The translations under genes and the position numbers were made by a program. A DNA stretch of 64,000 nucleotides, from positions 1,231,501 through 1,295,500 of the forward strand of contig NZ_AP019797.1 of assembly GCF_009936275.1 (NCBI RefSeq), read 5' to 3'. The stretch is from Rhodothermus marinus (GTDB lineage: Bacteria > Bacteroidota > Rhodothermia > Rhodothermales > Rhodothermaceae). Under the pieces are notes generated by a model, which was given only the letters and a program-made list of their open reading frames with translations, was not told where the DNA came from and made no database searches. Positions 9,219 to 18,943 of the stretch are shown piece after piece; the first letter of the stretch is position 1; each line of letters begins with the position of its first letter.

Positions 9219-9436
9219 TGGCTTACTACCAGCGGATACTTGCCTGTAGTCAGGCACGAAGCGAAGCGGCGTGCCGTCAGGAAAAAGCGCCACTTCGGCG
9301 GACGCCTTCGTGGCGTACTACAAGCGGTCCTGTCGGGTCGAAGTACTGAAAAACGTTGCGCTGTCTGAGAACATGCTTCTGCGAAAGCACACGTCTTTAA
9401 GCCACGGCACGGTTTGCCGATTTTTCAAGGAAAGGG
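9219..9436 (-). other. Decayed upstream end of propeller island
   Basis: No intact gene. On the minus strand short open segments such as FQYFDPTGPLVV (about 9315-9350) and EVALFPDGTPLRFVPDYRQ (about 9230-9290) read like pieces of a secreted protein, but they lie in different frames with stops between them. They precede the lost propeller terminus of leader copy 2. I take this as a degraded gene remnant at the edge of the island; its origin is not identified. Confidence 0.4.
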
Positions 9437-9468
9437 TTGTGCAAGTGAGCGATCTCGTTGTATCTTTA
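9437..9468 (+). promoter_or_regulatory. Putative trp operon promoter
   Basis: TTG at 9437-9439 and TATCTTTA at 9461-9468, separated by 21 nt, match the Bacteroidota primary-sigma pattern (TTG, then TAnnTTTG) closely. The start point would then fall only a few bases before the leader peptide ATG at 9477, implying a leaderless or nearly leaderless leader-peptide message. Confidence 0.45.
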
Positions 9469-9476
9469 AGGCCACG

Positions 9477-9560
9477 ATGCGGCACGTTGCGTATCATAGC
9501 GCCCACTATTTTGGCTGGTGGTGGTTTAGCACCGCCGCGGTGGGCCGCGCACGTGCCTGA
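9477..9560 (+). CDS. trpL: trp operon leader peptide
   Basis: A 27-codon ORF ending in TGA, 71 bp before trpE. It contains three consecutive tryptophan codons at 9516-9524 in the context GWWWFS, far above chance for so rare a residue. The stop lies 13 nt after segment GCGGTGGGC (9537-9545). The layout follows classical attenuation: a ribosome stalled at the Trp codons leaves that segment free, while one that reaches the stop covers it. It is too short for routine gene calling. Confidence 0.85.
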   Translation: MRHVAYHSAHYFGWWWFSTAAVGRARA

Positions 9561-9620
9561 AATCGTGCATTCCGTAGTGAAATCAGTCGGCCCACCGCAA
9601 GCTTCGCGGTGGGCTTTTTT
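9537..9620 (+). terminator. trp attenuator: terminator and antiterminator
   Basis: Terminator: arm GCCCACCGC (9590-9598), 7-nt loop, arm GCGGTGGGC (9606-9614), then six Ts (9615-9620). Antiterminator: the leader segment at 9537-9545 is identical to the terminator's 3' arm (GCGGTGGGC) and can pair with 9590-9598 instead. A further upstream segment GCCCAC (9501-9506) can pair with GTGGGC (9540-9545). So the segments form the 1:2, 2:3 and 3:4 set expected of transcription attenuation. Confidence 0.88.
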
Positions 9621-9631
9621 CGTTAGGTGCC

Positions 9632-11122
9632 ATGACGTTCGAGCGCTTTCAGGCATTGATCGACACGCACCGGTCGACCGGCCATACGCACCTGTTCGTG
9701 CCGGTCTTCCGGCGGCTGGGGGCCGACCTGCTCACGCCCGTGTCGGCCTTTCTGAAACTGCGCGGGCACGAGCCCGGCGCCTTCCTGCTTGAAAGCGTCG
9801 AAGGCGGCGAAAAGCTCGGCCGCTACTCGTTCCTGGGCGTGCGGCCCTACCTGACCGTGGAGGTGCGCGACGGACAGGTGACGCTGCAACGGGCGGGTGC
9901 CGCGCCCGAGACAAGTCCGGACGACTTCTTCGCGACCATGCGGCAATTGCTCCGTCGGTACCACCCGGTGCAGGTGCCCGAACTGCCGCGCTTCACGGGC
10001 GGGGCCGTGGGCTACCTGGGCTACGACATGATCCGACAGCTGGAGCGTCTGCCCGCCCCGCCGCCCGACGACCTGGGGCTGCCCGACGCCCGCTGGAACT
10101 TCTACGACACGGTGGTGGCCTTCGACCACGTGCGGCACCAGCTCGTGCTCATGGCGGGCGTCTTCGTGGCACCCGACACCGACCTGCGTGCGGCCTACGA
10201 CGAGGCCGTCGCCCGTCTGGACGCGCTCACCGACACCCTTTCGCACGCGCCGCTGGAGGCCCCCGAGCCGGTCTCGCTCCCCGAGACGCCGCTCACGTCG
10301 AACTTCACGCGGGAGGATTTCTGCCGGGCGGTCTGCCGCGCCAAAGACTACATCTACGAAGGCGATATTTTCCAGGTGGTGCTCTCCCAGCGGTTTGCCA
10401 CGCCGTACGCGGGCGACCGCTTCAATCTGTACCGGGCGCTCCGCCAGGTCAATCCGTCGCCCTACCTGTTCTATATCGATTTCGGCGACCTGGCGCTGAT
10501 CGGTTCGTCGCCCGAGGTGCTCGTGCGCGTCGAGCACGGCCGGGCCGAGGTGCTGCCCATTGCGGGCACGCGGCCGCGCGGCCGCACGCCCGAAGAGGAT
10601 CGGGCGCTGGAGGCTGAGCTGGAAGCCGACCCCAAGGAACAGGCCGAGCACCTGATGCTCGTCGATCTGGGCCGCAACGACCTGGGGCGTGTATGCCGCT
10701 TCGGGACGGTTCAGGTGGAGCGTTTCGCGTTCGTCGTGCGCTACTCGCACGTGATGCACCTGGTGTCGCTCGTGGCCGGCGAACTCGATCCGCGCTACGA
10801 CGCGCTCGATGCGCTGGCGGCGTGCTTTCCGGCCGGCACCGTCAGCGGCGCGCCCAAGGTGCGGGCCATGGAGATCATCGACGAGCTGGAGCCCACGCGG
10901 CGCGGCGTCTATGCCGGGGCGGTGGGCTACATGGATTTTTCGGGCAATCTGGACACCTGCATTGCCATCCGCACCATGGTGGTTCGCAACGGCACGATCT
11001 ACGTCCAGGCCGGGGCGGGCATCGTGGCCGACAGCGACCCCGAACGCGAGTACGAGGAAACCGTTAACAAGGCCCGGGCGCTGGTCGAGGCCATGCGCGT
11101 CGCCGCGTCCGGTTTGCTTTAA
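9632..11122 (+). CDS. trpE: Anthranilate synthase component I
   Basis: 496 aa. Makes anthranilate from chorismate using ammonia supplied by TrpG, the first committed step to tryptophan. The N-terminal domain carries the segment LLESVEGGEKLGRYSFLG, where the Trp feedback site lies in the family (LLES element). The chorismate-binding C-terminal domain shows PSPYLFYIDF, IAGTRPRGRTPEED, LMLVDLGRNDLGRV, the FPAGTVSGAPKVRAMEII segment and GAGIVADSDPEREYEE. Length is normal for TrpE. It begins 11 bp after the attenuator T-run and is the first structural gene of the operon. The G-T-V-S-G-A-P-K motif distinguishes it from isochorismate synthases. Confidence 0.96.
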   Translation: MTFERFQALIDTHRSTGHTHLFVPVFRRLGADLLTPVSAFLKLRGHEPGAFLLESVEGGEKLGRYSFLGVRPYLTVEVRDGQVTLQRAGAAPETSPDDFFATMRQLLRRYHPVQVPELPRFTGGAVGYLGYDMIRQLERLPAPPPDDLGLPDARWNFYDTVVAFDHVRHQLVLMAGVFVAPDTDLRAAYDEAVARLDALTDTLSHAPLEAPEPVSLPETPLTSNFTREDFCRAVCRAKDYIYEGDIFQVVLSQRFATPYAGDRFNLYRALRQVNPSPYLFYIDFGDLALIGSSPEVLVRVEHGRAEVLPIAGTRPRGRTPEEDRALEAELEADPKEQAEHLMLVDLGRNDLGRVCRFGTVQVERFAFVVRYSHVMHLVSLVAGELDPRYDALDALAACFPAGTVSGAPKVRAMEIIDELEPTRRGVYAGAVGYMDFSGNLDTCIAIRTMVVRNGTIYVQAGAGIVADSDPEREYEETVNKARALVEAMRVAASGLL

Positions 11123-11142: not shown

Positions 11143-11634
11143 ATGGCTTCGCTGAAAGAACTGATCTTCAACAAAGGCGGGATCGGGAAGTCGCTCTCCC
11201 GCCAGGAAACCGTCGAGCGGATCAACCCGCTCATCCGCGAGCACATTGCGCTCAATCATCAGCACGACTACGTGATCCGTACGATCGGCGATGCCGAGAT
11301 CGCCGAGCGGCTGGAGCAGTTTCAGAAGATCGCCCGCGTGGACGTCGGCAAGCTGGCCGAGGTGGTCTTCAGCGCGGGCGGCACGGCCTACAGCGGCGTC
11401 GATATGGAGCCGGACGACTTCAACCTGGGCACCGATCCGGCCGAGATGATCCACCGCCTGCTGGAGGCCGAGCGGCGCTTTCTGCAGCGCGTGAACGATG
11501 AGCTCAAGCTCAACCATCAGATCCGCACGAAAGCCGTGCTGAACCTGGTACGTCAGCACAGCGAGGAGCGCCTGCGTTACCTGCAGGAAGTAGCCCGACG
11601 CTACCCGAAACCAGCGACCCTGGCGACGTCATGA
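11143..11634 (+). CDS. Unknown helical protein between trpE and trpS
   Basis: 163 aa, starting 20 bp after trpE and overlapping the trpS start by 4 bp (ATGA), so it is part of the operon and coupled to trpS. No signal peptide. Apart from the first 20 residues it is predicted almost fully helical, with long charged heptad-like segments (AEIAERLEQFQKIARVD, EMIHRLLEAERRFLQRVND, RQHSEERLRYLQEVARRY) and several histidines (REHIALNHQHDY). This could be a four-helix bundle. I do not recognise the family. Its position suggests a role tied to tryptophan supply or tRNA charging, but nothing in the sequence proves that. Confidence 0.85.
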   Translation: MASLKELIFNKGGIGKSLSRQETVERINPLIREHIALNHQHDYVIRTIGDAEIAERLEQFQKIARVDVGKLAEVVFSAGGTAYSGVDMEPDDFNLGTDPAEMIHRLLEAERRFLQRVNDELKLNHQIRTKAVLNLVRQHSEERLRYLQEVARRYPKPATLATS

Positions 11635-12695
11635 GTACGGCAACGACGGCAACGGCCCCGCAGACGGCGCAGCCGGCCGGTGCGGCCACCCGGACCATCG
11701 TGGTTTCGGGCATCCAGCCGTCCGGCGAGCTGCACCTGGGCAACTACTTCGGGGCGATTCGCCAGCATCTGGAGCTGCACGAGCGGTACGAATCGTACTT
11801 CTTCATCGTCAACTACCACGCGTTGACGACCATTCACGACCGGGAGGCGCTGCGGCGCTACACGTTCGAAGCGGCCGTCACCTACCTGGCCCTGGGCTTC
11901 AATCCCGAAAAGGCCGCGCTCTTCGTGCAGAGCGACGTGCCCGAGGTGACCGAGCTGGCCTGGATCTTCTACAACCTGGTGCCGGTCTCCACGCTCGAAA
12001 AGGGCGTGGCCTACAAGGACAAGGTGGCCCAGGGCCTGCCGGCCAATGCCGGGCTCTTCAACTACCCTGTGCTGCAGGCGGCCGACATCCTGATCTACGG
12101 GGGCACGCTCGTGCCCGTCGGCGCCGACCAGAAGCAGAACATCGAGATATGCCGCGACATCGCGCAGCGCTTCAACCGGACGTTCTGCCCGCCGGATCGG
12201 CCGCTGTTCCCCATTCCGGAGCCGCTCATCCGGGAAGAGGTGGCCGTGGTGCCGGGCATTGATGGCCGGAAAATGTCGAAAAGCTACGGCAACACGATCG
12301 GCATCTTCGACGAGGGCAAGACGCTGCGCAAGAAGGTGATGTCGATCGTGACCGACTCGACGCCGCTCGAGGCGCCGAAGGATCCGGATCGCTGTAACGT
12401 GTTTGCGCTGATCAAGCTGTTCGCCGACGAAGAAACGCGCAACCGGATCGCCGAAGCCTACCGGCGGGGTGGCTACGGCTACGGCGACGCCAAGAAGGAG
12501 CTGATCCGGCTCATCGACGAGCACTTTGCCGAGGCGCGTGAGCGGCGGCGCGAGCTGCTGAAGCATCCGGACTACGTGATAGACGTGCTGCGCGAGGGGG
12601 CCCGCAAGGGCCGCCGGCGGGCGCAGGAGATGATGGAGCAGGTGCGGGATCTGGTCGGGCTGAACTACGCCACCTATCGTCCGGAGGCGTCATGA
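11631..12695 (+). CDS. trpS: Tryptophanyl-tRNA synthetase
   Basis: 354 aa class I synthetase charging tRNA-Trp. The N-terminal Rossmann domain has SGIQPSGELHLGNYFGAI (HIGH-type motif HLGN near residue 34) and the second ATP motif GRKMSKSYGN near residue 215. The ~20-residue A/T-rich start (STATTATAPQTAQPAGAA) is a low-complexity extension before the conserved core; no better downstream start is visible. It overlaps the unknown gene upstream and trpG downstream by 4 bp each. Location inside the trp biosynthetic operon is unusual and puts tRNA charging under the same attenuator that senses charged tRNA-Trp. Confidence 0.96.
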   Translation: MSTATTATAPQTAQPAGAATRTIVVSGIQPSGELHLGNYFGAIRQHLELHERYESYFFIVNYHALTTIHDREALRRYTFEAAVTYLALGFNPEKAALFVQSDVPEVTELAWIFYNLVPVSTLEKGVAYKDKVAQGLPANAGLFNYPVLQAADILIYGGTLVPVGADQKQNIEICRDIAQRFNRTFCPPDRPLFPIPEPLIREEVAVVPGIDGRKMSKSYGNTIGIFDEGKTLRKKVMSIVTDSTPLEAPKDPDRCNVFALIKLFADEETRNRIAEAYRRGGYGYGDAKKELIRLIDEHFAEARERRRELLKHPDYVIDVLREGARKGRRRAQEMMEQVRDLVGLNYATYRPEAS

Positions 12696-13306
12696 TTCTG
12701 GTGATCGACAACTACGATTCGTTTACCTACAACCTGGTGCATCTGCTGGGGCGGCACACGCAGGATCTGCGCGTGGTGCGCAACGATGCGGTCACGCTCG
12801 ACGAGGTGCGGGCCCTGCAGCCCGAGGCGATCCTGATCTCGCCGGGACCGGGGCGTCCGGCCGAGGCGGGCATCACGGAAGCCGTCATTGCCGAACTGGG
12901 ACCGACCACGCCGATCCTGGGCGTGTGCCTGGGCCATCAGGCGATCGGAGAGGTCTTCGGCGGGCGTGTGGTGCATGCCCCTTCGCTCATGCACGGCAAG
13001 ACGAGCCGCATCTTCCACATCGGGATCGGAATCTTCGAGGGAGCGGCACAGGGCTTCACGGCCACGCGCTACCACTCGCTGGTGGTCGATCGCGACACGC
13101 TGCCCGACGTGCTGGAGATCACGGCCTGGACCGAGGACGGGGTGATCATGGGGCTGCGCCACCGGCACTATCCGATCGAAGGCGTGCAGTTTCACCCGGA
13201 AAGCGTGCTCACCACTGAAGGGCCGCGCCTGATCACGAACTGGCTGCGCCAGGTGAAGGCATGGCATCAGGCCCGTGCGACATCGATCCCGCAAACGCAA
13301 CGATAG
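12692..13306 (+). CDS. trpG: Anthranilate synthase glutaminase component
   Basis: 204 aa class I glutamine amidotransferase that hydrolyses glutamine and passes ammonia to TrpE. Visible motifs: VIDNYDSFTYNLVHLLG at the N-terminus, oxyanion-hole SPGPGRPAEAG, nucleophile cysteine in GVCLGHQAIGE, and the catalytic His-Glu in FHPESVLTTEG. Segment HAPSLMHGKTSRI is typical of TrpG/PabA. No fusion to TrpD. Start overlaps trpS by 4 bp. It might also serve p-aminobenzoate synthase, as in some bacteria; this cannot be judged here. Confidence 0.96.
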   Translation: MILVIDNYDSFTYNLVHLLGRHTQDLRVVRNDAVTLDEVRALQPEAILISPGPGRPAEAGITEAVIAELGPTTPILGVCLGHQAIGEVFGGRVVHAPSLMHGKTSRIFHIGIGIFEGAAQGFTATRYHSLVVDRDTLPDVLEITAWTEDGVIMGLRHRHYPIEGVQFHPESVLTTEGPRLITNWLRQVKAWHQARATSIPQTQR

Positions 13307-13312
13307 ACCGCC

Positions 13313-14362
13313 ATGCAACCCTACCTGACCGCGCTGGCCGAGGGCCGCACGCTGACGCAGGAAGAGGCCGAGGCGGCCATGCACCTGATGATGCGGGGCG
13401 AGGCGTCGCCCGAGCAGATCGCCGGCCTGCTCATGGGGCTGCGCGCGCGGGGTGAGACGCTCGACGAGCTGGTGGGCTTTACGCGCGTCATGCGCCAGTA
13501 CGCCGTGCCCGTGCGCGTGGACGATCCGCATGCAATCGACCTGTGCGGTACGGGTGGCGACCGCTCCGGCACGTTCAACATCTCGACGGCCGCCGCCTTC
13601 GTGTGCGCCGGAGCCGGCGTGACCGTGGTCAAGCACGGCAACCGGTCGGTTTCGTCGCAGGCCGGCTCGGCCGACGTGCTCGAAGCGCTGGGCGTGGCGA
13701 TCGATCTGGGGGCGGAGGGGGTCGAGCGCTGCCTGGAGGAAGTGGGCATTGCCTTCGCCTTTGCACCGCGTTTCCATCCGGCCATGCGCCACGTGATGCC
13801 GGTGCGTCGGGCGCTGGGCGTGCGGACGTTTTTCAACATCCTGGGGCCGCTCTGCAACCCGGCCGGCGTGCGGCGCCAGCTCGTGGGGGCGTTCCGGCCC
13901 GACGTGGCGGCCACGATGGCGGCCATCCTGGCCCGGCTCGGCGCCGAGCACGTGGTGACCGTCCATGCCGAAGACGGGCTCGATGAGCTGTCGCTTTCGG
14001 CGCCCACGGCCACCTACGAGTACCGGCGGGGCGACGAGGCGCCCCGGGCCGGACGCGTCGAACCGGAAGCGCTCGGACTGCCCCGCGTGCCGCTGGAGCA
14101 GTTGCGCGGGGGTGACGCCGAAGCCAACGCCCGCCTGCTGCGCCGCGTGCTCGAAGGCGAGGCCGGTCCGCACCGCGACGTGGTGCTGCTGAATGCAACC
14201 TACGCGCTCTACGTGAGCGGTCGTTTCGGCGACGATCTCGAGGCGTGTCTGGAAGCCGCCCGCGAAAGCATCGACAGCGGCGCGGCCCTGGCACGCCTGG
14301 AGCAGCTGGTCGAAGTGTCGAACCGGGTGGCCCGTGAGGCTGCCCGCCAACCTGCCGCTTAG
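13313..14362 (+). CDS. trpD: Anthranilate phosphoribosyltransferase
   Basis: 349 aa. Transfers phosphoribosyl from PRPP to anthranilate. The small helical N-terminal domain (GEASPEQIAGLLMGLRARGETLDELVGF) is followed by the PRPP site CGTGGDRSGTFNIST and KHGNRSVSSQAGSADVLEALG, then NILGPLCNPAG. Six bases separate it from trpG. Length is normal for TrpD. The 204 bp after it, before trpC, hold no convincing gene, only an 8-bp hairpin at 14462-14481. Confidence 0.96.
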   Translation: MQPYLTALAEGRTLTQEEAEAAMHLMMRGEASPEQIAGLLMGLRARGETLDELVGFTRVMRQYAVPVRVDDPHAIDLCGTGGDRSGTFNISTAAAFVCAGAGVTVVKHGNRSVSSQAGSADVLEALGVAIDLGAEGVERCLEEVGIAFAFAPRFHPAMRHVMPVRRALGVRTFFNILGPLCNPAGVRRQLVGAFRPDVAATMAAILARLGAEHVVTVHAEDGLDELSLSAPTATYEYRRGDEAPRAGRVEPEALGLPRVPLEQLRGGDAEANARLLRRVLEGEAGPHRDVVLLNATYALYVSGRFGDDLEACLEAARESIDSGAALARLEQLVEVSNRVAREAARQPAA

Positions 14363-14566
14363 TGCCATGGATCGCGCGATGCACCATGCGACCACGGAGC
14401 CCGGCCCGTTAGGCCGACGCACCTGCTACGATGAACGATTTAGCAGGCGGCGATGCTACTACTGGCCCCGCCGGGGGCCAGAAGCGAAAACGTCAGCGAT
14501 CGATTCGGTTCGCTTTCGCTGCATCGTCGTCTGAAAATCGTTCACCGTAGCCAGGAGGAAACAGCC

Positions 14567-15388
14567 ATGACGATCTTAGAACAGATTGCCCGGACCGTAC
14601 GCGAACGCCTGGAAGAACGCAAACGTCGCGTGCCCGTCGCGCTCCTGGAGGAGCGTTCCCACTATCAGAGTCCCACGCTGCCGCTGGCGCCGGCGCTGCG
14701 CACCGGCGAACTGGCCATCATCGCCGAGCTCAAGAAGGCTTCGCCTTCGAAGGGCATCATCCGACGCGAGTTCAACGTACCGGAGCTGGCGCGCCAGTAC
14801 AAATGGCACGGTGCGCAGGCCATCTCGGTGCTGACCGAACCCGACTACTTCCAGGGGAGTCTGGAGCACCTGGAGGCGGCGCGGCGCACCGTCGATCTGC
14901 CGCTGCTCCGGAAGGACTTCATTCTGGACCCCTACCAGATCGTCGAGGCGCGGGCCTATGGGGCCGACGCCGTGCTGCTTATTGCCGCGCTGCTCGATCC
15001 GGTGCAGTTGCACGAGCTGCACGCCATGGCGACCGAGCTGGGGCTGTCGTGTCTGGTGGAGGTGCATTCGGAGGCGGAGCTGGACCGGATCGATCTGGAT
15101 AAAATTGAAATACTGGGCGTCAACAACCGTGACCTGCACACCTTCGAAGTGGACGTCAACCGGGCGGTGCAGGTGCTGCGGCACGTGCCCGAGCGGATCG
15201 TCCGCGTGGCCGAAAGCGGCCTGCGCACGGCCGACGAGCTGGTGCACCTGCGTCGACACGGCATCGACGCCGTGCTGATCGGCGAGGCGTTCATGCGGGC
15301 ACCCCATCCGGGCGAGGCGCTCGAACGACTGCGCCGGGAAGTGCAGCGGCGCCTTGCAACGCCCGACATGCTCCGTATGGCGGTTTGA
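14567..15388 (+). CDS. trpC: Indole-3-glycerol phosphate synthase
   Basis: 273 aa from the ATG at 14567, chosen because AGGAGG lies at 14553-14558 and the conserved N-terminus ILEQIARTVRERLEERK begins there. TIM-barrel enzyme converting CdRP to indole-3-glycerol phosphate. Motifs: IAELKKASPSKGIIR (catalytic lysine region), VLTEPDYFQGSLEHL, LPLLRKDFILDPYQI, GVNNRDLHTFEVD and VAESGLRTADEL. Monofunctional, not fused to TrpF. Its own ribosome-binding site and the 204-bp spacer suggest somewhat independent translation inside the operon. Confidence 0.96.
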   Translation: MTILEQIARTVRERLEERKRRVPVALLEERSHYQSPTLPLAPALRTGELAIIAELKKASPSKGIIRREFNVPELARQYKWHGAQAISVLTEPDYFQGSLEHLEAARRTVDLPLLRKDFILDPYQIVEARAYGADAVLLIAALLDPVQLHELHAMATELGLSCLVEVHSEAELDRIDLDKIEILGVNNRDLHTFEVDVNRAVQVLRHVPERIVRVAESGLRTADELVHLRRHGIDAVLIGEAFMRAPHPGEALERLRREVQRRLATPDMLRMAV

Positions 15389-15402
15389 GCCCAACAGAAC
15401 CC

Positions 15403-16059
15403 ATGCTGAAGGTCAAAATCTGCGGCATTACGAATCTGGAAGACGCCCGGTACTGTGCGGCGGCCGGCGCGGACTTTCTGGGGTTCATTCAGTACCCGGA
15501 AAGTCCGCGCTACGTGGCCCCCGAGGTGGCCCGGGAGATCATCGAGTGGATTCACGGGCCCGAAAAGGTGGGTGTGTTCGTGAACGCAACGCCCGACGCG
15601 GTGAACCGGGCCATCGAGGAGGTGGGCTTCACCATGGTGCAACTGCATGGCACCGAGCCGCCCGAATGGTGCGCCGAGATCGACGCGCCGGTGATCAAGG
15701 CCATCCACGTGGTGCACGACGCATCGGCCGAGCAGCTGCGGACATTCATGGAGCCCTACCGCCCGTGGGTGACCTATTTTCTGCTCGACACGCACAAGAC
15801 GAACCTATGGGGTGGAACAGGGGAGTCGTTCAACTGGCGGCTGGCGCGCGAGCTGTCGGCCGATTATCCGATCCTGCTGGCCGGCGGGATCGGGGCCCAC
15901 AACCTGGAGGAGGCCGTCCGCACGATGCGTCCGCTGGGCGTGGACCTGTCGAGCAGCGTCGAGGCCGCCCCGGGCAAGAAGGATTTCGACAAGCTGGCCC
16001 GCTTTTTCGAGGTGTTTCACGCGCTGCGCAAACAACTGGAAGCGGAGGCTGCTGAGTGA
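15403..16059 (+). CDS. trpF: Phosphoribosylanthranilate isomerase
   Basis: 218 aa from the ATG at 15403; a TTG at 15385 that overlaps trpC is less likely because the conserved start is LKVKICGITNLEDA. The Amadori rearrangement acid/base residues are recognisable: cysteine in KICGIT and aspartate in FLLDTHKTNLWGGTG. Further motifs are VGVFVN, VQLHGTE, LAGGIGAHNLEEA and GVDLSSSVEAAPGKKD. Length and motif order are normal. It sits 14 bp downstream of trpC and completes the pathway between trpD and trpC in the operon. Confidence 0.95.
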   Translation: MLKVKICGITNLEDARYCAAAGADFLGFIQYPESPRYVAPEVAREIIEWIHGPEKVGVFVNATPDAVNRAIEEVGFTMVQLHGTEPPEWCAEIDAPVIKAIHVVHDASAEQLRTFMEPYRPWVTYFLLDTHKTNLWGGTGESFNWRLARELSADYPILLAGGIGAHNLEEAVRTMRPLGVDLSSSVEAAPGKKDFDKLARFFEVFHALRKQLEAEAAE

Positions 16060-16189: not shown

Positions 16190-17404
16190 ATGCCGACCGC
16201 CGAAACCGAACTGCTGACCTACGACGCGCCGGACGCTACCGGACACTTCGGCCCCTACGGGGGGGCGTTCGTGCCTGAAACCCTGGTGCCGGCGCTGGAA
16301 GCGCTGAAAGCAGCCTATGCCGAGGCGCGTCAGGATCCGGGCTTCTGGGAGGAATACCACGCCCTGCTCCGGGAATATGTGGGCCGGCCCACGCCGCTCA
16401 CGTTCGCACCGCGCCTCAGCGAAGCGCTGGGCGGGCTGCAGATCTACCTGAAGCGGGAGGACCTGTGCCACACGGGCGCCCACAAGATCAACAACACGAT
16501 CGGCCAGATCCTGCTGGCCCGGCGCATGGGCAAGACCCGGATCATCGCCGAGACGGGCGCCGGACAGCACGGCGTGGCGACGGCCACGGTGTGCGCCCGT
16601 TTCGGGATGCAGTGTGTCGTGTACATGGGCGCCGAGGATGTGGAGCGCCAGCACCTGAACGTGTTGCGCATGCAGCTGCTGGGCGCCGAGGTGCGGCCCG
16701 TCGAGAGCGGGAGCCGCACGCTCAAAGACGCCACGAACGAGGCCATCCGTGACTGGGTGACGAACGTTCACGATACGTTCTACCTGATCGGCTCGGTGGT
16801 GGGACCGCACCCGTACCCGATGCTCGTGCGCGACTTTCAGCGTGTGATCGGCGACGAGGTGCGGCGGCAACTGGCCGAACGCATCGGCCGCGAGACGCCC
16901 GACGCACTGGTGGCCTGCGTGGGCGGCGGCTCGAACGCTATGGGCTTGTTCTACCCGTTCCTGAACGACCGGCACGTGCGCATGTACGGCGTGGAGGCGG
17001 CCGGCGAGGGGCTTGACCGTCGTCATGCTGCCACGCTCACCTGCGGGCGGCCCGGCATCCTGCATGGCGCCATGAGCTATCTGCTGCAGGACGACGACGG
17101 TCAGGTGCAGCTGGCCCATTCCATCTCGGCGGGGCTGGATTACCCGGGGGTGGGTCCCGAGCATGCCTACCTGAAGGATCTGGGGCGCGTCACCTACGTG
17201 ACGGCCACCGACGAGGAGGCGCTGGAAGGCGTGCGGCTGCTGGCCCGTACCGAGGGAATCATTCCGGCGCTGGAAACGGCGCACGCCATCGCGTTTTTGC
17301 CCCGCCTGGCCCGCGAGCTGGGACCGGACGCCGTCGTGGTGGTCAACCTGTCCGGCCGCGGCGACAAAGACATGGGCACCATTGCACGATTCCGAATTGT
17401 TTGA
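16190..17404 (+). CDS. trpB: Tryptophan synthase beta subunit
   Basis: 404 aa PLP enzyme condensing indole with serine. The PLP lysine is in [13 protein letters not shown]; glutamate and the indole channel follow in [17 protein letters not shown]; the phosphate-binding loop is [12 protein letters not shown]. The N-terminus begins [17 protein letters not shown], the type-1 TrpB form that pairs with TrpA. The tail ends [15 protein letters not shown]. The gap of 130 bp after trpF holds no gene. Downstream, the operon is interrupted by a REP array and RAYT before trpA. Confidence 0.97.
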
Positions 17405-17415
17405 TAACCGTATTG

Positions 17416-17490
17416 TTGTAGGGGCACGGCATGCCATTGTAGGGGCACGGCATGCCATTGTAGGGGCACGGCATGCCGTGCCCCTACAAT
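17416..17490. repeat. REP array: three 21-bp units ending in a palindrome
   Basis: Three consecutive 21-bp units, each carrying GTAGGGGCACGGCATGCC (17416-17436, 17437-17457, 17458-17478). The last is joined to its inverse, so 17457-17490 is a perfect 34-bp palindrome. It lies just after the trpB stop and 74 bp before a REP-associated transposase. The GTAGGGGC head also occurs in the two dispersed modules near 4.5 kb and 21.2 kb. These are inferred to be the substrates of that transposase. Confidence 0.88.
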
Positions 17491-17563
17491 CGAACAAATA
17501 CAAAAATCACGCAAACACGAACAACGCGGTACGGTTGGCACGCCGACCGGCCCGTTACCGGCC

Positions 17564-18097
17564 ATGCCGTCGCGATACGACCCTGAACGGCATCACCGGC
17601 GTTCGATCCGGCTGCAGGGGTATCCCTATACCCGGCCCGGAATCTATTTTCTCACCATCTGCACGTATCGGCGCATCTGCCTGTTCGGGCAGGTGCACAA
17701 CGGCCGACTGGTACACAACCGTTTCGGCGAGGTGGCCGTCGCCTGCTGGCGTGAGATCCCGGTGCATTTTCCCCACGTCCGACTGGACGCATTCGTGGTA
17801 ATGCCCAACCACGTACACGGGCTTCTGATCATTCCGGATCGAATTCCGGAGCCGGTGCCGGAGCAGGAGGAACGCTTTGGCCGACCGGTGGCCGGTTCGA
17901 TCCCGACGATCGTGCGTTCTTACAAGGCGGCGGTAACGGCTCGAATCAATCGGCTGCGTCGAACGCCGGGGACTCCTGTCTGGCAACGCAACTATTACGA
18001 ACACATTGTGCGGAACAGGCGAGCGCTGGAGGCCATTCGCCGTTACATTGCAGAGAATCCCGCACGCTGGCAACAGGATCGGTATTTCATCAGCTGA
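17564..18097 (+). mobile_element. REP-associated tyrosine transposase (RAYT), Y1/HUH family
   Basis: 177 aa, an intact single-domain Y1 transposase of the IS200-like REP-associated type. It begins HHRRSIRLQGYPYTRPGIYFLTICTY (the N-terminal strand typical of RAYTs) and has the metal-binding HUH in FVVMPNHVHGLLI. The likely catalytic tyrosine is in VWQRNYYEHIVRN near the C-terminus. RAYTs are single-copy domesticated relatives of IS200/IS605 transposases that process REP hairpins. It stands between trpB and trpA, in the same orientation, and ends 15 bp before the trpA start. Flanked upstream by its REP array. Codon use is like its neighbours, with no sign of very recent transfer. Confidence 0.93.
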
Positions 18098-18112: not shown

Positions 18113-18943
18113 ATGATCGACCGCCTGCAATCGATGTTTGCAACGTTGCGGGCCCGTGGTGAAAAGGCCATGGGCCTGTTTCTGACGAACGGGTTTCCGG
18201 ATCCGGAGAGCACCCGCCCGTTGCTGGAGGTCATCGACGAGGCCGGCGCGGATTTCATCGAGCTGGGCATGCCCTTCAGCGATCCGCTGGCCGAAGGCGT
18301 GCCGATCCAGCGTGCCAGCGAGCGGGCACTCCGCCACGGCGTGCGCCTGACCGACGCCTTCCGCACGGCCGAATGGTTTCGGGCGCGGAGCCAGACGCCG
18401 CTGCTGCTCATGGGCTACGTCAACCCGATCTATCGCTACGGCTACCGGGCCTTCTGCCGCGATGCGGCACAGGCGGGCGTGGACGGATTGATCCTGGCCG
18501 ATCTGCCGCCGGAAGAAAGCGCGGAACTGGACGAAGCCGCCCGCGAGGCGGGACTGGCCATGGTCTATCTGATCGCCCCGAACACGCCGGACGAGCGCAT
18601 CCGGGCGATCGACGAGCGCGCCACCGGCTTCGTCTATGCTGTGTCGGTGACCGGACTGACCGGAAGCCAGTTGCCCGATCATGCGGCCGTCGAGGCCTAC
18701 CTGCAGCGGGCCCGCCGCCAGATCCAGCAAAATCCGTTGCTCGTGGGCTTTGGCATCAAATCGCACGAAGACGCCCGGCGCCTGAGCTGCCACACGGACG
18801 GCTTCATCGTGGGTTCGGCGCTGATCCGACTGGTCGAGCGGCTCTGGGACGATCCGGCGCTTACGCCGGAGGAGCGGCTGGCGTCCGTGCGCCGGTTCGT
18901 GCATGCGCTGAAGTACGGCACGCCGGTCCAGGTGGGCACCTGA
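18113..18943 (+). CDS. trpA: Tryptophan synthase alpha subunit
   Basis: 276 aa TIM barrel cleaving indole-3-glycerol phosphate to indole and glyceraldehyde 3-phosphate. Catalytic glutamate is in [17 protein letters not shown], the aspartate in [14 protein letters not shown], and phosphate-binding glycines in [12 protein letters not shown] and [12 protein letters not shown]. Loop 6 appears as [12 protein letters not shown]. It is separated from its partner trpB by 708 bp of REP/RAYT sequence, which breaks the usual trpB-trpA translational coupling. Confidence 0.96.

Follow-up and report, generated by a model that had tools for sequence, protein, structure and literature searches.

A predicted tryptophan attenuator upstream of trpE in Rhodothermus marinus and other Rhodothermia, with trpS in the operon behind it

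The window that we analyzed is a 64-kb stretch of Rhodothermus marinus DNA containing a tryptophan locus in the order trpE-x-trpS-trpG-trpD-trpC-trpF-trpB-trpA, all on one strand (Table 1). Gene x codes for a conserved 163-aa protein, homologs of which follow trpE in most Rhodothermales-type loci and were not found in Balneolaceae-type loci; a search for viral relatives of this protein found none. The tryptophanyl-tRNA synthetase gene, trpS, overlaps the 163-aa gene on one side and trpG on the other, by 4 nt each. Upstream of trpE there is a short open reading frame with three Trp codons, followed by a terminator hairpin (9589-9615) and a T-run about 16 nt 5' of the trpE ATG (9632).

Table 1. 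Features of the leader region and the genes behind it, in window coordinates.
Feature	Position	Strand	Details
-33 element TTG	9437-9439	+	Predicted Bacteroidota-type promoter, TTG-N21-TATCTTTA
-7 element TATCTTTA	9461-9468	+	Consensus TAnnTTTG; predicted transcript start ~9473, 5' UTR ~4 nt
Leader peptide ORF	9477-9560	+	27 codons, MRHVAYHSAHYFGWWWFSTAAVGRARA then stop; ATG 9477, TGA 9558-9560; 27-aa leader kept in 5 of 5 compared genus members
Segment 1, GCCCAC	9501-9506	+	Can pair with 9540-9545; function doubtful
Sensor, TGG TGG TGG	9516-9524	+	Three Trp codons in tandem; class leaders show WWW, WWxW, WW or WxW
Segment 2, antiterminator 5' strand	9537-9547	+	GCGGTGGGCCG, within leader ORF; 10-11 bp with 9588-9598; z = -5.9; covariation
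Segment 3, common to antiterminator and terminator	9588-9598	+	Pairs with 9537-9547 or 9606-9614
Intrinsic terminator (predicted) and U-tract	9589-9620	+	10-bp GC-rich stem, 9589-9598 with 9606-9615; U-tract 9615-9620
trpE, anthranilate synthase component I	9632-11122	+	TIGR00564, 587 bits
Conserved 163-aa protein, family unassigned	11143-11634	+	Between trpE and trpS; no Pfam or NCBIfam match
trpS, tryptophanyl-tRNA synthetase	11631-12695	+	TIGR00233, 291 bits; single match over cut-off in its genome
trpG	12692-13306	+	TIGR00566
trpD	13313-14362	+	TIGR01245
trpC	14453-15388	+	NF001377; true start possibly further downstream
trpF	15385-16059	+	PF00697
trpB	16190-17404	+	TIGR00263
trpA	18113-18943	+	TIGR00262

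An earlier note on this DNA had described a 27-codon leader with three consecutive Trp codons, and our analysis confirms it. The note had also seen that a nine-base segment of the leader is the same as the 3' arm of the terminator and could pair with the 5' arm. This too holds: GCGGTGGGC at 9537-9545 is an exact copy of the 3' arm at 9606-9614, and with the 5' arm it forms part of an 11-bp duplex (9537-9547 with 9588-9598). On both strands of the 64-kb window there is one case of a hairpin with a U-tract whose 3' arm (at least 9 bases) is repeated no more than 140 nt upstream. The hallmarks of a classical ribosome-mediated trp attenuator are found at this locus–a Trp-codon leader ORF ahead of the trp genes, an intrinsic terminator between the leader and the first gene, and mutually exclusive pairing of the 5' arm with the leader segment–and on the sequence evidence it is very probably one.

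To assess the pairing between segments 2 and 3 statistically, we compared the duplex energy of the leader 3' of its Trp codons against the terminator 5' arm with that of dinucleotide-shuffled leaders, which gives the z-score in Table 1 for the window; folded whole, the leader has z = -2.5. The same pairing exceeds the shuffles (p < 0.05) in 40 of 61 leaders from the class Rhodothermia, as against 1 of 35 Bacteroidota leaders from outside the class, and it is at chance level in family f6 and in some genomes of family f4. The earlier note had proposed an alignment of related trpE upstream regions as a check, and in this alignment the Trp codons recur while the leader segment and both terminator arms change together. 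For example, one of five members of the genus has GCAGTGGGC / GCCCACTGC / GCAGTGGGC in place of GCGGTGGGC / GCCCACCGC / GCGGTGGGC (leader segment / 5' arm / 3' arm), a three-way change that is statistically weak in itself, being drawn from five close sequences and equaled by about 20% of shuffles. Across the class, an A in the arm goes with a U in the leader (17:1) and a G in the arm with a C (17, and with U in 5; Fisher P = 5 x 10−6, ignoring shared descent). A second column also covaries (Fisher P = 1 x 10−3, again ignoring shared descent), and the changes are spread over several families.

A Trp-rich leader and a terminator precede trpE in 61 of the 90 class genomes whose trpE upstream regions we examined. 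A genome was counted when a short ORF carrying WW or a cluster of W residues, and then a hairpin with a U-tract, stood ahead of trpE. For each leader we took the nearest ATG upstream of the Trp run as its start, a choice that could bias single cases. Three further genomes, in family f16, have a WWW or WW leader and a bulged terminator, and three more loci (L018, L022 and L169), with separated Trp codons, were judged by eye. Roughly one in four of the class genomes that we examined has no such leader, and in some of these trpE follows an unrelated upstream gene. On the reverse strand, the same ORF criterion gave 6 background matches in 149. A wider search of the phylum found leaders in 38 of 60 Bacteroidota upstream regions, including one further member of the class; they are present in most of the families examined except the Chlorobi-like ones, and family f27 (Chlorobi-like, a name that is inferred) had none in any upstream region of that search. 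The leader peptide of one Balneolaceae contig (L033) is the same as that of a genome in the class set (G119), which identifies the class as that of the Balneolaceae.

In family f2, three loci (L028, L118 and L134) have a terminator-like hairpin before trpE, with no Trp-codon leader nearby and with trpS elsewhere in the genome; attenuation may have been replaced there by another control mechanism. WW-containing peptides about 450 nt upstream in this family were discarded as part of the upstream reading frame.

The leader appears to begin almost at the 5' end of its transcript. A scan for sigma-70 promoters, which are the wrong type for this phylum, found none. In Flavobacterium, mapped promoters have TAnnTTTG at positions -12 to -5 (PMC9723704), and we used this spacing to place transcript starts by motif. 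With the Bacteroidota motif, the statement in the earlier note that promoter boxes lie a few bases before the leader ATG is borne out (TTG at 9437, TATCTTTA at 9461-9468), and its suggestion of a nearly leaderless leader peptide gains support from the position of the motif. Of the 61 class genomes, 49 have the dyad TTG-N16..22-TAnn[TC]T 10-22 nt 5' of the leader ATG, where shuffled sequences would give 1.1; with a single exception among the 49, the spacer is 20 or 21. The predicted promoter stands 12-16 nt before the ATG in most class genomes with a leader, and for 47 of the 49 a 5' UTR of 0-4 nt is predicted. For comparison, only 5.5% of mRNAs are leaderless in Flavobacterium psychrophilum (PMC9723704).

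The spacing of these elements fits the established footprint of a ribosome. Segment 2 starts 21 nt past the start of the first Trp codon, which puts it beyond the leading edge of a ribosome stalled there, and it ends 14 nt short of the end of the stop codon, which puts it under a ribosome at the stop. The latter distance is 10-14 nt throughout the genus, and 14 of 16 Balneolaceae-type leaders share it. When the RNA was folded with a stalled ribosome in place and segment 4 (the terminator 3' arm) absent, 60 of the 61 class leaders showed at least 5 pairs between the 5' arm and upstream RNA. With segment 4 included, most genomes favor the terminator over the antiterminator; the switch must therefore act kinetically, depending on the order of synthesis as in classical attenuators.

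The Trp-rich leader and its two alternative hairpins almost certainly switch the trp genes on when charged tRNA-Trp is scarce, and from the sequence we infer ribosome stalling, read-through, a response to tryptophan and a single transcript. Transcription would start some 4 nt 5' of the leader ATG, followed by nearly leaderless translation. Under a shortage of charged tRNA-Trp, the ribosome would stall at the Trp codons and cover the RNA to roughly 9529-9535, which would leave segment 2 free to pair with segment 3 before segment 4 is synthesized, and RNA polymerase would read through. When charged tRNA-Trp is plentiful, the ribosome would reach the stop codon and mask most of segment 2, segment 3 would pair with segment 4, and transcription would terminate before trpE. 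Read-through would yield the Trp enzymes together with the only TrpRS, giving feedback on tRNA charging itself.

In E. coli, the trp leader has a 5' UTR that contains a ribosome-binding site, and its 1:2 stem is functional. The R. marinus region resembles the E. coli attenuator in its consecutive Trp codons, its mutually exclusive 2:3 and 3:4 hairpins and its terminator before trpE, and differs from it in the predicted 5' UTR of about 4 nt and in having no supported 1:2 stem. The earlier note had drawn a complete 1:2/2:3/3:4 attenuator, with 9501-9506 able to pair with the leader segment. If such a 1:2 stem (9501-9506 with 9540-9545) acted as a protector, an untranslated leader would terminate by default as in E. 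coli. The 2:3 and 3:4 parts of that scheme are supported, but the 1:2 protector is at chance level in both genus and class. Pairing of 9501-9506 does belong to the minimum-energy fold of the leader, with the 1:2 stem extended into the Trp codons when the leader is unoccupied, and GCCCAC is invariant across five members of the genus; since it never varies there, covariation is silent on this stem. However, about 20% of shuffled leaders form an equal stem in the window (z = 0.1; p = 0.21), four of the five genus members have p values near 0.2 and the fifth has 0.09, and class-wide p falls below 0.05 in 1 of 59 leaders against 3 expected by chance. Many Balneolaceae-type leaders can form just 2-5 bp. 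The protector stem is therefore unproven as a part of the attenuator, and we consider a functional 1:2 protector with default termination unlikely.

Besides attenuation, the terminated leader RNA (about 145 nt) or the 27-aa peptide might act in trans, like rnTrpL and peTrpL of Sinorhizobium meliloti. The trpL-trpE(G) system of that species is similar in that its transcript starts at or beside the trpL ATG and in attenuation before trpE (PMC7298713), and it differs in operon content and in having a known trans function. The near-leaderless leader and the conservation of the peptide within the genus are consistent with such a role, but outside the genus conservation lies mainly in the Trp run and the codons of segment 2; in Balneolaceae-type leaders, for example, segment 2 (GCAGTGGA) is formed by the codons of a conserved peptide tail, AVESL. 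A trans function in addition to attenuation is accordingly improbable in our estimation. A reading in which the hairpin does no more than end an upstream transcript or cause a constitutive pause, with the Trp-rich ORF arising by chance, is very hard to reconcile with the recurrence of Trp-rich leaders at the same distance over a low reverse-strand background, the promoter dyad 12-16 nt before the same ATG, and the covariation of the leader segment with the terminator arm.

The earlier note regarded a trp attenuator in the Bacteroidota as notable in itself, and this is not supported. Trp leaders occur in most families that we examined, and the Bacteroidetes trp peptide leader was published in 2010 as Rfam RF01692, 'Bacteroid-trp' (Weinberg et al. 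2010, PMC2864571). RF01692 and attenuation have been discussed for Flavobacterium (PMC6414381), where leader-peptide attenuation of amino-acid operons has also been noted (PMC9723704). RF01692 is similar to the Rhodothermia form in having a Trp-codon leader before trp genes and then a terminator, in the same phylum. The difference is in the Rhodothermia pairing of about 7-11 bp between leader segment and 5' arm: flavobacteria-like and Ignavibacteria-like loci (L231-L249 and L193-L213) have strong terminators, and no complement to the 5' arm was found 3' of their Trp codons. The RF01692 covariance model matches two flavobacteria-like loci; at its gathering cut-off it does not match the window, nor is it among the matches at E <= 10 for 9400-9640, and eleven other class loci do not match it either. 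The Rfam Trp_leader model, RF00513, scores 14.2 bits in the window, below its cut-off of 41. Weak matches to Qrr, GcvB and isrD in the gathering and relaxed Rfam scans were far below cut-offs, and we judged them to be due to chance. The Rhodothermia form is absent from Rfam; the kind is known, but this structural form of it is uncatalogued. As a class-wide and comparatively well-supported trp attenuator, it is an addition to a phylum whose leaders are known but little studied.

Exactly one trpS above the family cut-off is present in every one of the 60 class genomes searched, and in 57 of them it follows trpE on the same strand at a distance of no more than about 2 kb; it was beside trpE in none of 20 Bacteroidota genomes outside the class. 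The three exceptions all belong to one genus (f2 g2) that is also without a Trp leader at the usual place. Another genus (f7 g8) has no leader and still has trpS near trpE, so the link between leader and trpS is not strict. Given this arrangement, the charging of tRNA-Trp would control its own synthetase via the operon attenuator. Trp and trpS attenuators of the classical type outside Proteobacteria are known from Actinobacteria, with one predicted before trpS2 of Streptomyces avermitilis (PMC1262725); there trpS has an attenuator of its own, whereas here the only trpS is one of the genes of the attenuated trp operon. The combination of attenuator and trpS was not found in the literature searched, which is weak evidence of novelty, and an earlier listing for this organism is possible.

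Taken as a whole, a class-wide Rhodothermia variant–a near-leaderless peptide, a two-hairpin switch with no protector in which segment 2 is masked at the stop codon, and the only trpS behind the switch so that charging autoregulates the enzyme–is a tentative reading, to which we give slightly less than even chances. If true, it would offer a simple test case for attenuation by a near-leaderless ribosome with no protector stem, and one for an aminoacyl-tRNA synthetase that is regulated by its own product via an operon attenuator.

Further along the window, no leader or terminator was recognized before hisG (~20.1-20.3 kb, from ~20134). Between trpB and trpA, at 17564-18097, there is a gene resembling REP-associated tyrosine transposases, with a score below the NCBIfam cut-off, and it is preceded by a short repeated motif that is visible as repeats in the ORF translations at about 17382-17565.
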